From assembly GCA_958510825.1 (NCBI GenBank), contig OY294044.1:77174895-77238894 (forward strand): a stretch of 64,000 bases of DNA, in the 5' to 3' direction. A program made the position numbers and the translations under genes. Under the pieces are notes generated by a model. It did no database searches. It was not told where the DNA came from and saw only the letters and a list, made by a program, of their open reading frames with translations. Of the stretch, positions 4,524 through 59,269 are shown piece by piece. Positions within the stretch are counted from its first letter, which is position 1; the number at the start of each line of letters is the position of its first letter. This DNA is from Brachypterus glaber (Eukaryota; Arthropoda; Insecta; Coleoptera; Kateretidae).

Positions 4524-5337
4524 CGTCGGCTTACAAGTAAAAGGCACTAAGTCACTTTTTTGCAAAAATGGGATTTTAATGGCACTGTAATTAATTTTTG
4601 ATGATCTATGTATAGGTACACCGAACTAACTTCTAGGTAGACTGCCAAGGGAGTTACCCACTATACAAAACGCACCAATTTGATTTTGATTAAAATTTTA
4701 TCTGGCAATAGGCACTAAGTCACTTAGTGCACTTAGTGCGTTTTACTTGTAGATTATTTCAAATGTTTCTGCACTAAGCGACTTTCTAAAAAGAGTTAAT
4801 TTATAAAAATATGATTGCTTGAATCAATTATATGATACAATATCGCGTTATTTATTGTACTGACAAACGCATTCAAATTTTGCTATGTTAAAGTTGATGG
4901 AATAGAGACAGAACAGAAATAACAAGAATATAAAAAAATACTAAAGTTCGCGGCAAGTTCGGACAGCCCTTAGAAATGCACCCTGAAGTGTTTTATCATT
5001 AATAATGATTCATTAAAATTATTGACTTTAGGAGATGCTTCTTTGCCGGCACAGCCGATGGCTTCTGAAAACTGTCTTAGTTCTGGCATAGTAAGCAGTT
5101 TCATATAATTAATACTAATTAATTATTATTATTAATTTTGAAAACTTTCTTTAAACAATCAAAAAGTCCAAACCCTTCTTTTAAAAATCTATTTTTTGAA
5201 AATTTATGTAAATATCTTATTTTCTACTTATATTACGTTACATTACATTACGTTTAATTAATAGAAGGGTTTTAATTTTAAATAGTTGTTTTTTATATTA
5301 TTTTATTGACTTAGTGTTCTTTACTTGTAAGCCGACG
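4524..5337. mobile_element. MITE family B, unit 1
   Basis: The TIR is CGTCGGCTTACAAGTAAAAG at the left and its complement CTTTACTTGTAAGCCGACG at the right. An internal relic of the same end (CACTTAGTGCG...TTACTTGTAG) lies near 4720-4750, suggesting a compound element. It has no coding capacity. The flanks read ATAT on both outer sides of the two-unit block. Confidence 0.75.
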
Positions 5338-9557: not shown

Positions 9558-9842
9558 ATGGAGTATCTTTCTGAAAGAGAGTTAGAAAAACTAATCAATG
9601 AGGCAGTTATTCAATTGCACGAAATAACTGATGAACAGGCAGAAAACTCTGAAGTAGATGGTGACTCTGATGCAGAGGATATTTTACCCGTAAATACTCC
9701 TTCTTCAACAATAAATAAAACACCCACATTATCATCATCTATTTTATCTGAAACCTCCAAACCAAACCTCTTATTCAGAAAGCCCATCAACATTAAGATA
9801 CGGAATACGTCCACGGAAAAGAACTTTAAGTTTGTCAAGTAG
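9558..9842 (+). pseudogene. piggyBac transposase, N-terminal acidic part
   Basis: The ATG at 9558 follows a splice-acceptor-like TTTTTCAG, suggesting a leader intron. The frame reads MEYLSERELEKLINEA, then an acidic stretch (DEQAENSEVDGDSDAED) and a Ser/Thr-rich tail. It is out of frame with the downstream part: near 9780-9840 another frame continues with a basic then Ser/Asp-rich string. Acidic N-terminal tails are usual in piggyBac transposases. This is inferred to be the start of the same broken gene. Confidence 0.65.
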
Positions 9843-9850
9843 TTCCAGCG

Positions 9851-11122
9851 ATGATGATCATCGATGAATCTCGTGAAAATGATCAGAATATTTTAAATAT
9901 GCCACATGTAACTGCTGAGAAAGTTTATGGCCTTGAGGGCGAAAGTGAGGAAACAATTGAAGAGGAAAATGAAGAAATCGAAAACACCCAAATGCCAAAA
10001 AGAGGATCACCTACCTTTGACCGTTTATATAAAGTCAGACCTCTCTTAGAATATTTGGGCAAAAAGTTTAAAGAATATTATTCTCCCTCTCGATATATTT
10101 CAATAGATGAGAGCATGGTAGCATTTAAAGGTCAAACCAGCTTGAAACAATATATGCCCAAAAAACCTATAAAGCGTGGTTTTAAAATTTGGGTCATGTG
10201 TTGTGCTGCTACTGGCTATATGCTCGCATTTGATGTATACAGCGGAAAGGATATCGATGGCATGGTTACTGGAAATTTAGGTGAAAAAGTAATTTTAAAA
10301 TTATCAGAGGCTCTTAAAGGTATATTTTATTGCCTTTTCTTTGACATTTTTTTCAGTTCTGTCGCCCTATTATTTAGAATTCTAGAAAAAAATTTGTTTG
10401 CCTGTGGAACTGTACGTAAAGACAGAAAAAATCTTCCAGATAACACAATTATCTCTAAAAATAAGCTAAAACTACATGCTATGGAATGCGCAATGAGCGG
10501 TGATATTTCCTTTGTAAAGTGGATGGATAGAGGAAAAAAACCTGTGACAATGTTAAGTTCAATGCACAATCCTTCTAAACTAACTAAAGTAAAGAGAACT
10601 AATAAAAGAGGCGAAATTGAGGATGTATCTTGTCCAGTAGCTATATCTGATTATAACAGTTATATGGGGGGAGTAGATCGTATGGATCAAATGATAGCAG
10701 CCTATTCTGTAGCCAAAAAATCTCGTCGGTGGTGGATGAAGCTTTTCTATTATTTTCTGGATTGTGCTATTGCTAACAGTTTTATTCTGTACAAACAATC
10801 AATGAAGAATAAAAATCAAAAGGCTCTTAGACATTTGAATTTTAGATCAACCCTGGTTAATGAACTTATTGGAACATTTTGTTCCAAACTCAGAAGAGGT
10901 TATCAGCCAATGAAAGGATATGCCAAAAAAAGAAACTCTGGAGTTATAACTGTTGCCAATACAATTAGACATTCGGCAGGAAAACATTTGCCCGAATTAA
11001 TTAAAACATATAGAAGATGTGCAGAGTGTAGTACAACTAAAAAGGAAAAGCGTAGCAATATGATTTGCAAGGAATGCAACGTAGCTCTATGCAAAAAATG
11101 TTTTCACACTACTATTAATTAA
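9851..11122 (+). pseudogene. piggyBac transposase, catalytic and zinc-finger part
   Basis: The 423-codon frame carries the DDE core of a piggyBac transposase, which cuts and joins at TTAA sites in the nucleus. The catalytic aspartates are visible: SIDES (D86), FFDIFFSS (D165, usually DNFF) and GGVDRMDQ (D276, with D279). The spacing is like that of the family. RLYKVRPLLEYL begins the recognisable core. About 100-150 residues that normally precede it are missing after the acidic stretch at 28-46, so the gene has an internal deletion. The C terminus (about 389-420) is a cysteine-rich zinc finger ending CKKCFHTTIN. A frame break also separates it from the N-terminal part, so no active protein is expected. 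Confidence 0.88.
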
Positions 11123-43389: not shown

Positions 43390-44834
43390 CTAACCCCCCG
43401 AGACTCCCGCGTACCAAAATTATATGGTTTACCTAAAATTCACAAGGACGGTGTCCCTCTTAGACCAATTGTCAGCACAATAGTACGTATAAACTTGCCA
43501 AACACCTTGCCCAAATCTTAAATCAGTTAGTTGGAAAAACGAGGTCTTATGTAAAAAATTCCACACACTTTGTACAAACCTTATCGACAGTGACCCTGGA
43601 CCCCTCGGACATAATGGTTAGTTTCGACGTAGAATCTTTATTTACTAACGTTCCCGTTCCCGATACAATAAATATTATACGAGACCTACTTACAACTGGA
43701 AATCTTGACCCTAAGTTATGTAAATTATTTGAAGCTTGTCTGACATCTACATATTTTCTGATACAGGGAGAGTTCTATGAACAAGTGTCAGGCGCCGCAA
43801 TGGGATCCCCATTATCACCTCCTGCGGCCAATGCTTTCATGGAATACTTCGAGAAAAAAGCTATTGAGTCATTTCCATTAAAACCTAAAATTTGGCGCAG
43901 ATACGTAGACGTCTATGCTATTTGGCCCCATGGCATGGAAAGCCTTCAAGGTTTTCTAAATCACCTCAATTCCCAACATAAATCTATACGGTTTACGATG
44001 GAAATTGAGAACAACGGATCACTTCCCTTTTTGGACGTTTTGGTTTACAAAACGGAAAATGGCTCAATAGGACACTCGGTATACAGGAAGAAAACCCACA
44101 CTGACAGATACCTAAAAGCATTTTCACATCACCATCCCTCTCAAAAACGCTCGGTAGTTAATTCACTTGTTCATAGGGCTTTCATGATTTCAGACAAGAA
44201 TTCCCTAGACACAGAACTCCTTAAACTAACCAAAGCCTTGACCATGAACGATTATACCAAAAAAGACATTAATAAGACCATATACAAATACAGAAATCCC
44301 AGACCCAAACAACAGGACAATAGTGACAATGACAGACAGACACAAGTTATACTTCCCTATGTAAGCGGTATCACGGATAAAATAGGTAAACTTTTGAAGA
44401 AGTCAAATATTAAGCCTATATTTCGGTCCAACCAAAAATTAGGTCAATGTTTGACTTCAACAAAAGACAAAATACCCCTGAGTTCAGAAGGCGTATATAA
44501 AATACCCTGCTCCTGTGGTACGGTTTACATAGGTGAAACTAAGAGAAAAATTTCTACAAGACTTCAAGAGCATGAGCGCAATATAAGAAAGAAACAAATT
44601 TCCTTATCGGCAGTAGCCGAACATGTACATGAAACAGGTCATAAAATCAATTTGTCTGAAACAAAACAAATATTAACAGAAAACAGAAAAATGCCAAGGA
44701 AGATACGGGAATCGATAGAAATCATCAAGCATCCTAACAATATCAATCGGGACACTGGTTACCACTTACCTGCAATATGGAAGTCTTTGATAGGAAAAAC
44801 CTCGTCACGGGTAAATAACCACAACTCGTCATAA
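43390..44834 (+). pseudogene. Penelope-like retroelement, RT and GIY-YIG endonuclease
   Basis: 5'-truncated. The first piece ([20 protein letters not shown], 43415-43478) is in another frame, broken near 43480; the main frame then runs to 44834. Within the 415-codon part from 43590: motif A SFDVESLFTNVP (11-22), motif B SGAAMGSPLSP (67-77), motif C YVDV (105-108). Motif C should be YVDD, so a catalytic aspartate is lost. The C-terminal domain GVYKIPCSCGTVYIGE (301-316) with RLQEH is the GIY-YIG endonuclease with its Cys-rich linker, the combination unique to Penelope-like elements. It sits in the loop of foldback E. Confidence 0.9.
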
Positions 44835-53295: not shown

Positions 53296-54383
53296 ATCAA
53301 ATCAAATCAAATCATTTATTTTGTGTTATCCTGGTAGTTACACACGTCGAAGTTGGTACATAATAAAAATATAATAGATACAGAGAAATTATTTAAGAGA
53401 CACAAATACATAATTACAAATACAGATAAAAATATAAATAAATAAAATTATAAATATGACTAGATAAAAAAATAATTAAAAAAAAATAAATTAAATTATA
53501 TGAAAAAAATCATCAAAATTATTTCTTAAAAATTTGTCAAAATTGTAGAAAGCCTTTTTAAGCAAATACTTTTTGATCTTAGCCTTAAACAAATTTATAT
53601 TTAGCTTTTTGACCTCCACAGGTAAAACATTATAAAATTTAGGGGCAAAGTAATTTATGCCTGTCTGATTTTTTACTAATCTTGTAAAATCAGGACAAAC
53701 TGCAGCTTTCTTCCTTGTTTTAAAATACTTAAGAGCTTCTAGGATATAAAGGCAGGGCAGGGTCAGAATTTCAAGCAAAATAAAATGAGCCTTACAATCT
53801 TCACTGTAACTTAAATTACCCAATACTCTTATTGCTCGCCTTTGCAGCCTAAATATTCGGTCTTTAATAATAGAATTACTCCAGGCTAAAAGACCATATG
53901 TCATTATGGACTGTATAACCGAGAAGTACGCCGTTCTCAAGATTACTGTTGAAAGGTTTTTCGAAAGTATACGTAACAGATATATGTTAGAGGTTAATTT
54001 AGAAGCTGTTGCCTCGACGTGATTGCTCCATGTTAGTTTGGTGTCAATATATACACCTAGAAATTTTACGCATTCAGTTCTTACGGGTTCAGCCCGAAGC
54101 GAGAGAACAATTTTTTCAGTTTTTGCTGAGTTTAAGCTTAATTTGTTACTATGAAACCACTGCTTAGCATGTAAAAATATTTCATTGCTTCTTTTAATGG
54201 CTTCAGCAAGTGATTTATCTTTTGTGCCATATGAACTATCATCAGCAAAGAGTTTTAGGATTTCGGCTAACTCGAGGAAACCAGGGAAGTTATTTATGAA
54301 AATCAAGAATAGTAATGGTCCAAGGATGGACCCTTGTGGTACACCGATCCTTAAGAGAACTTCGGAACTATCCGAATTTTTTT
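53296..54383 (-). mobile_element. LINE 3' fragment with RT core, pentamer tail
   Basis: A 5'-truncated non-LTR element read on the minus strand. It ends AAATAAATGATTTGATTTGA (53296-53320), a short (GATTT)n tail right after AATAAA. The coding part is described at 53491-54383. Confidence 0.82.
53491..54383 (-). pseudogene. LINE reverse transcriptase, C-terminal two-thirds
   Basis: An open frame without its own start codon; the true protein started further upstream. It contains RT motif B (VPQGSILGPLLFLIFINNFP, about 54285-54345) and the catalytic FADD box (LKLFADDSSY), then CVKFLGVYIDTKLTW, IFRLQRRAIRVLGNLSY and the tail KAFYNFDKFL. No frameshift is visible from motif B to the stop, so this copy is much fresher than 30518-31158, which it resembles throughout. 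Motif A, the endonuclease and ORF1 are missing. Jockey/CR1-like; the clade is inferred. Confidence 0.85.
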
Positions 54384-57958: not shown

Positions 57959-57966
57959 CAAGAAAA

Positions 57967-59131
57967 TAGGGACCCTAAATAAAGTGACATTTAACTTCAC
58001 ACAAAGGGTTGAGACACGCTTTGATTTTGAGGTTAAAATGGCAACCAAGCACTAGTATTGTTAAACAATGAAAGACAATGGTTTTATCCAAAGTGCTTTG
58101 GTGCCAAATCTAAATCTAGTAATAATTATGTCTAAATTTAATACAATTCTGTCAGATACAAAATCTGAGGTTATAGTTAAATGTCAACCCGAACAGAGGC
58201 GTCGATATTAATTAATATAATAATATTGTCATATTTAAGTGTCAGTGTCAAACTGAATATTTGGTCATCAAATTTATTTATTTACGAAATTATGGTTTAT
58301 AGTTTTATTATTGTACTTTTTTAAAGTGCCTACGAAAATACCTGTACAATTTAAATCAAGATTTACTTATGGAATATACTGAATATCTTTAATCAAAAGC
58401 ATTTCTATTTGGTTTTTGTTGAATGTACCTCCCAATGATAAAATTAAATTATTATATTGATTTTTGCGCAAATTTTGATTATTTTTCAAACTAAAATTCT
58501 CTTCTTCCAAGGTTTTTATGTATATATTAAGTGCTTTAAATTTTTCTTCATTTTCTACAAGTATTTTCTCAATTTCCAAAATATTTTTATCTTTCTCCAA
58601 AATAATTTGTTCCTTTTCAAAAATAATTTTTTCATAATTCGATAATTTAGAATGAATTTGATTACCATCTAGAACATTTAATTTTCTATTAAAACTACAA
58701 TTTTTTTGAATTTTTGGAATTGCGGTTTCTTTTAATTTTAAAATAAAATCTTCCTCTGAAAAGTGTGCCTACAAAAGTTACAAATTTAAAAATTTTAAAG
58801 TTCATTTTTTCATATTTTTACTTCGCAAATTTTTGATTTATCGAAAATCTTCCAATTCGGAAGATACATGCTTCTTTTCCATTCATTTAATAATGCATTG
58901 CATTTGGGGAATGGAAATAATATATATCCTGCATGGATAGAATTACGACAGTAATGAACATTGTCGTGACATTTTTTCAAAAAACACGTCTATGGATATT
59001 TTGACAAGTAATGTCACTTCTACTATACCAAAAGTGCCAATTCGCAAAAAAAACATAACCCTGCAGAAATTACTAAATTGGTGTCTCAACCCTTTGTGTG
59101 AAGTTAAATGTCACTTTATTTAGGGTCCCTA
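57967..59131 (-). mobile_element. P-element-like transposon, 1165 bp, internally deleted
   Basis: The terminal 51 bp are identical inverted repeats (57967-58017 and 59081-59131), starting TAGGGACCCTAAATAAAGTG. CAAGAAAA lies directly outside on both sides (57959-57966, 59132-59139), an 8-bp target duplication, the size typical of P elements. Inside, the minus strand encodes a THAP domain and coiled coil (58367-58972) but no catalytic domain. Identical TIRs imply recent movement. Mobilisation in trans by a full-length relative is inferred. Confidence 0.88.
58367..58972 (-). CDS. THAP plus coiled-coil protein of the P-like element (two exons)
   Basis: Exon 1 is 58972-58822, a 53-bp intron follows (58821-58769, GTAAAA...TTTTGTAG), and exon 2 is 58768-58367. 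Exon 1 opens MSRQCSL; one extra base near codon 8 then shifts the frame to CRNSIHAGYILFPFPK ... NEWKRS ... KSKICE, and exon 2 continues AHFSEEDF. The zinc ligands fit C-x2-C-x40-C-x2-H, the THAP DNA-binding signature, with the conserved W, FP and TAIP (AVP box). Exon 2 then gives a coiled coil (LEKDKNILEIEKILVENEEK ... YIKTLEEENFSL) and ends LGGTFNKNQIEMLL...IQYIP-stop, where full transposases continue into the GTP-binding and catalytic parts. About 183 residues once the shift is allowed for. A KP-like repressor role is inferred. The frameshift may be real or a sequence error. Confidence 0.78.
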
Positions 59132-59269
59132 CAAGAAAACAGTCATAAGTAAAAAAAATTACATAAAAAAAGTCATATAATGACTTTTACTTATAAGTAC
59201 AAAAAATTTCATACTAAGTAAAATACAAAACATGAAACCTATATAAACAAATGCTATTCACATTTGTGA

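Follow-up and report, generated by a model that had tools for sequence, protein, structure and literature searches.

The window analysed here, a stretch of 64,000 nucleotides from the genome of the beetle Brachypterus glaber (contig OY294044.1), contains a transposable element of 1165 bp (57967-59131) whose gene lies on the minus strand. As originally predicted from the sequence, the element is bounded by two 51-bp terminal inverted repeats (TIRs), which are 100% complementary to one another, and carries the 8-bp target site duplication (TSD) CAAGAAAA on both sides, while the 53-nt predicted intron that divides its reading frame has GT/AG ends (Table 1). Within the window, the TIR's first 26 nt find a match (up to 3 mismatches) at 2 places, namely the two element ends, with a shuffled expectation of 0. 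A 12-bp stretch of the TIR, AGTTAAATGTCA, is repeated inside the element at 58175-58186 and is a candidate binding site.

Table 1 Features of the 1165-bp element and its target site, in window coordinates
Feature	Position	Strand	Remark
Left TSD, 8 bp	57959..57966	.	CAAGAAAA
Left TIR, 51 bp	57967..58017	+	Identical to the right TIR in the window copy
Remainder of parent 3' end	58018..58382	-	With the TIR, parent 4582-4997; non-coding except for the tail of the new frame
Deletion junction	58383..58383	.	1 base joining parent 755 to parent 4582
Exon 2	58367..58768	-	THAP C-x2-H end, predicted coiled coil, FNKNQIEMLL, new tail IQYIP + stop
Intron, 53 nt	58769..58821	-	Prediction; GT..AG ends, within the THAP domain
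Exon 1, from ATG (58972)	58822..58972	-	N-terminal THAP; frame broken in the window copy
Right TIR, 51 bp	59081..59131	-	5' of the gene
Right TSD, 8 bp	59132..59139	.	CAAGAAAA

Searches with a 42-mer of the TIR in viral and in genome contig collections returned 0 matches each, a phage tblastn gave no match and a literature search for the TIR start TAGGGACC together with 'terminal inverted repeat' gave 0 results. Elsewhere in the window a 430-aa open frame (9830-11122) looks by eye like a piggyBac-type transposase, and two further open frames (43464-44834, 456 aa and 53491-54381, 296 aa) look, again by eye, like pieces of reverse transcriptase; the first of these has an end resembling GIY-YIG.

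The two joined exon frames of the element match the THAP domain (PF05485, E=9.6e-9), followed downstream by a Lys/Glu/Ile/Leu-rich, coiled-coil-like stretch. The original prediction had proposed a THAP finger and a coiled coil; the domain itself stands, whereas the C-x2-C spacing given for it does not, because it was read from the damaged window copy. Among the 11 copies of this element described below, the finger reads C-x4-C-x40-C-x2-H (CSVVNC...CEAH) in 9 and is interrupted in the other 2, by a deletion in the window copy (L001) and by a stop codon in L005. The coiled coil is plausible, a simple heptad test being suggestive and short of significance (P=0.068 against 1000 shuffles). We take the FNKNQIEMLL stretch of exon 2 to resemble P, and the C-terminal tail searched alone against Pfam and PDB gave nothing above cut-off. 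A homologue search with the 183-aa read-through returned 183 candidates and 0 at E<=0.01, in a collection that is perhaps poor in animal proteins.

We searched the genome (648 Mb, 842 contigs) with the element. The similarity search scored the best 40 of 418 candidates and its copy list is thus a lower bound, exact counts being taken from pattern searches. It found longer copies in which the two parts of the window element are separated. Six of these (L032-L036 and L038) were read end to end and measure 4556-5845 bp with the same kind of TIRs, and 6 of 7 near-full-length copies have an exact 8-bp TSD, the seventh (L031) being without its left end. A protein search with a P-type catalytic query hit nine places (L031-L036, L038, L039 and L080), with 86-100% identity in the best piece of each. 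Translated pieces of these parents match the RNase H domain of P transposase (PF21787, 5.4e-26) and its GTP-binding insertion (PF21788, 1.9e-8), neither of them present in the window copy, and the solved Drosophila P transposase (PDB 6p5a, 262 residues, 1e-19), and the family therefore belongs to the P superfamily. The right 51-bp TIR is the same in L033, L034 and L035, has one change in L036 and is altered in its inner part in L032 and L038. Parents that combine such TIRs with a P-type transposase, the check originally suggested, do exist in the genome.

All nine transposase places look broken, and an intact transposase of the parent family was not seen in the assembly. The transposase region carries at least one frame-changing indel in 7 of 7 aligned copies; L039 is split by foreign DNA and L080, which was partly read, changes frame. 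An intact parent copy could be present in other individuals. A second group of P-like transposases, 36-38% identical, was also observed (C18:10248776, C15:41208463, C2:28239273 and C4:20160357). Their frames stay open for 515-581 aa, the matched stretch is free of stops, and the group could represent an active relative.

Aligned to the parent L033, the window class consists of parent positions 1-755, one base and 4582-4997. Approximately 3.83 kb is missing, the catalytic domain included, and both ends are kept, as was foreseen for a 1.17-kb KP-like element lacking that domain; we regard it as near certain that the window element is an internal-deletion derivative of a P-superfamily parent. Genome-wide there are exactly 11 matches to a 38-nt pattern spanning the junction (up to 3 mismatches; 5+6; control 0), the same 11 that were found by similarity. 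TSDs are exact in 10 of the 11 copies and all different, the terminal bases of L007 being damaged. A single junction at sites with different TSDs identifies the class as an amplified derivative. In 11 of 11 copies the sequence of the left TIR is that of the right end (51/51), while the two TIRs of L033 differ at 4 of 51 positions, and the left end of the window class therefore seems to have acquired the right sequence by conversion.

The intact protein predicted for this class has 185 aa, of which approximately 179-180 correspond to the start of the parent's protein. An uninterrupted THAP and coiled-coil frame of 184-185 aa is kept by 5 of the 11 copies (L003, L004, L006, L008 and L011, the last with 184 aa), which answers the question raised at the outset as to whether every 1.17-kb copy is disabled. 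The remaining 6 are damaged: L001, L005, L007 and L010 by a stop or a frame change, L009 by loss of the splice donor and an 11-bp insertion, and L002, whose frame is open, by the replacement of the THAP Trp33 by Arg. The lesion of the window copy was first thought to be a one-base frameshift near 58950; in fact 5 bp are deleted between 58953 and 58952, adjoining one substitution, a lesion that no other copy of the 11 shares. A one-base sequencing frameshift can thus be ruled out, the 5-bp deletion being absent from the ten siblings. As a result of the deletion the frame stops after 9 codons, and this copy most likely yields no THAP and coiled-coil protein of its own. One of the uninterrupted copies, L011, contains approximately 180 bp of foreign DNA just inside its right TIR, with the frame still open.

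The window class is part of a larger population of derivatives. Genome-wide, 413 places match a 32-nt TIR pattern (up to 3 mismatches; 200+213; control 0). From 100 listed exact-right-TIR places of these 413 we sampled by place 40 loci on C1 and C2, a sample that omits listed TIR places already in the similarity-search copy list and in which L069, a second TIR with its element beyond the fetched stretch, was not counted. The 40 loci comprise 16 remnants consisting of TIRs only, 22 deletion derivatives that break off at parent 159-516 on the 5' side, one longer copy (L080) and L058, the only sampled derivative to keep the coiled-coil end, with part of its THAP domain deleted. Sampled derivatives without the coiled-coil end are thus far commoner (22 vs 1 of the 40 loci). 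Recurrent junction classes are 195/3545 (6 loci), 183/4225 (3) and 488/4394 (3).

A 36-nt pattern for the coiled-coil end (up to 3 mismatches) was found at 28 places, compared with the 413 TIR places. These are the 11 copies of the window class, 10 further derivatives that have lost the catalytic domain (L012, L013, L015, L016, L019, L020, L021, L023, L058 and L091) and 7 near-full-length copies (L031, L032, L033, L035, L038, L039 and L080). An open THAP and coiled-coil frame of 179-263 aa, with some amino-acid changes, is present in 6 of the 10 (L012, L013, L015, L016, L019 and L023) and is not open in L020, L021, L058 and L091. Coding derivatives of KP-like design therefore arise with several junctions, yet are a minority of all derivatives. 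We also observed that junctions 756/4345 and 516/4344 share ends with each other and with 755/4582 (L015, L016, L019, L020, L058 and L075), as if derivatives had shrunk stepwise from one another.

Incomplete repair of an excision gap is the usual account for deletions in P elements, and the deletion in the window class would have arisen in this way. While it was intact, the parent transposase would then have moved the shortened copies in trans, a step suggested because copies without a catalytic domain sit at 11 sites with different TSDs. The 185-aa protein of the uninterrupted copies would be made, dimerise and occupy the element ends, and the bound dimer would block the transposase or its promoter and so restrain the family. 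We consider it likely overall that the window element belongs, as a damaged copy, to an 11-copy subfamily of a P-superfamily parent of approximately 5 kb, moved in trans, whose intact members' predicted THAP and coiled-coil protein would act as a repressor in the manner of KP. For repressor function of the window-class protein taken on its own, the sequences leave us about evenly divided, and against such a function today is the broken appearance of all nine transposase places, which leaves no seen target.

Selection on the frame bears directly on this question. Substitutions in the 11 frames number 13 missense, 2 stop and 7 silent, against a neutral expectation of approximately 73:10:17% (P=0.06 for an excess of silent changes), and silent changes make up 12 of 42 in pooled KP-like copies compared with 7 of 39 in 14 other copies (Fisher P=0.30). 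Neither the 11 frames nor the comparison with the 14 other copies gives a clear sign of purifying selection on the THAP frame. For this reason the originally proposed convergent formation of a repressor stands as a statement about structure, the KP-like architecture, and not as one about an element formed or kept for repression. The possibility that the window class is especially young was rejected: its copies differ from their own consensus by 0.45%, similar to the other classes compared.

The near-neutral decay of the frames also fits a passive non-autonomous derivative that hitch-hiked on the transposase with a leftover THAP frame of no role, a possibility we place only a little short of even. 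Other junction classes (195/3545, 183/4225 and 488/4394) were amplified at about the same time, with divergences of 0.34-0.53% across all five derivative classes compared and 0.62% in the parents, and the 5' breakpoints in 22 of the 40 sampled loci, at parent 159-516, fall inside or before the coiled coil. Set against hitch-hiking, yet compatible with it, are the position of the window class as the largest (11) among the 28 places that keep the coiled-coil end, the 5 frames that are uninterrupted and the open THAP and coiled-coil frames of the six other derivatives. It is also conceivable, and in our view rather doubtful, that the element acts mainly through titration of the transposase by its ends or through small RNAs and not through a protein. 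Both of its TIRs are intact and identical, deletion derivatives in Drosophila are said to titrate transposase in the available portion of PMC5427502, and the Drosophila cytotype is now credited to piRNAs according to the excerpted text of PMC4938643, but titration would hold equally for every derivative in the family. An 11-copy derivative of almost the same design as KP in a separate family, of about the age of its parents, poses the question of whether such derivatives spread by repressing or by being short.

The TIR-only remnants offer a separate view of the family's activity. Donor scars of Drosophila P keep TIR ends as a result of a staggered cut. In Drosophila P one strand is cut at the element end and the other inside the TIR (PMC7776569, in the part available), and the accessible sections of PMC7776569 and PMC10983969 give the excision stagger as 17 nt. 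In the present genome a pattern of a right end, a gap of 0-30 and a left end occurs at 75 places (for example C2:37557425, C2:41945101 and C4:39119226; control 0), a lower bound because the gapped patterns allow no mismatch. With a pattern that would have admitted approximately 46 nt per side, the 75 remnants retain at most 40 nt per side of the 51-bp TIR, with a mode of 38 on both sides (27 and 26 of the 75). A pattern with a gap of 31-61 was found at 1 place, the composite L052, and a pattern for short retained ends at 2 places; the edge of the retained length is therefore sharp on both sides. From the 16 sampled remnants a script parsed 14 (all except L072 and L078): thirteen measure 72-90 bp, and the fourteenth is the 67-bp inner part of the 108-bp composite L052. 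Exact 8-bp TSDs flank 12 of these 14, L060 matching at 7 of 8 and L052 in its outer flanks, and the 14 centres are all different. Across the full set of 75 the number of distinct centres is 46, and the most frequent one is present 5 times.

We regard the 75 remnants as probable excision scars. Because the ends of inserted copies are complete, one strand must be cut at the terminus, and scars keep 38-40 nt per end, which would place the cut in the other strand approximately 38-40 nt inside. On these lengths, a stagger of approximately 38-40 nt in the family of the window element seems somewhat better than an even prospect; alternatively, the fixed length of the scars may come from repair copying to a fixed stop.

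A quite different and, we judge, improbable origin would make the remnants a mobile MITE family or products of slippage. They are indeed numerous (75), exact 8-bp repeats lie at the ends of 12 of the 14 parsed and some centres recur, up to 5 times. The 46 distinct centres show, however, that the remnants are not clonal, and the one clonal internal sequence of a MITE was not found among them. Slippage between 51-bp arms should often retain more than 40 nt, but only L052 was found with a gap of 31-61 and only 2 places with short ends. Footprints of the window class itself were looked for and rejected, a right-right TIR pattern giving 0 places, which is weak evidence given about a dozen such copies.

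Taking the remnants as footprints, we lean towards the broader reading that this lineage cuts its strands with an offset of approximately 38-40 nt, over double the 17 of Drosophila P, and leaves MITE-like palindromic scars, that the same burst gave several THAP and coiled-coil classes, a repeated KP-like outcome, and that the transposase copies in the assembly all look broken. A P-type stagger above 17 nt was not found in the open-licence literature searched. The scar population would provide a natural read-out of the position at which the transposase cuts, a stagger of approximately 39 nt would, if true, set it clearly apart from the Drosophila enzyme, and the case warns that what is called a short palindromic 'MITE' with an 8-bp duplication can be an excision scar.

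KP is the textbook example of how a transposon derivative can restrain the family it comes from, and is a close analogue of the window class. Like that class, whose dimerisation region is a predicted coiled coil, KP of Drosophila melanogaster is an internally deleted, multi-copy P element that keeps both ends, the THAP domain and the dimerisation region and has lost the catalytic part. As given in the available text of PMC4938643, the deletion in KP removes P positions 809-2561, and its product has 207 aa, of which the start of the transposase contributes 199, compared with the 185 aa of the window class. The TIRs of Drosophila P have 31 bp (PMC7776569, in excerpt), compared with 51 bp and TAGGG ends here, and the parent of KP has 2.9 kb, compared with approximately 5 kb. 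Further differences are the predicted intron inside the THAP domain and the frameshift of the window copy, and repression by the present class is a prediction made by analogy. The Anopheles gambiae P-MITEs and P subfamilies, as far as the accessible portion of PMC1562414 describes them, are likewise non-autonomous with P-type TIRs, 8-bp TSDs and multi-kb masters nearby, some of them broken by frameshifts and stops; the centres of those P-MITEs are unrelated to P, whereas most of the derivatives read in the present genome are simple internal deletions or TIR pairs with little between them. Zebrafish Pdre2 / THAP9 also belongs to a P-type transposase family with 8-bp TSDs and multiple internally deleted copies, and differs, in what is available of PMC10983969, as a vertebrate element with 13-bp TIRs starting CATACC, subterminal repeats and a protein shown to be active. 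With respect to excision, the 17-nt stagger of Drosophila P (PMC7776569, same excerpt) contrasts with retained ends in Brachypterus glaber that have a mode of 38 and a maximum of 40 nt.
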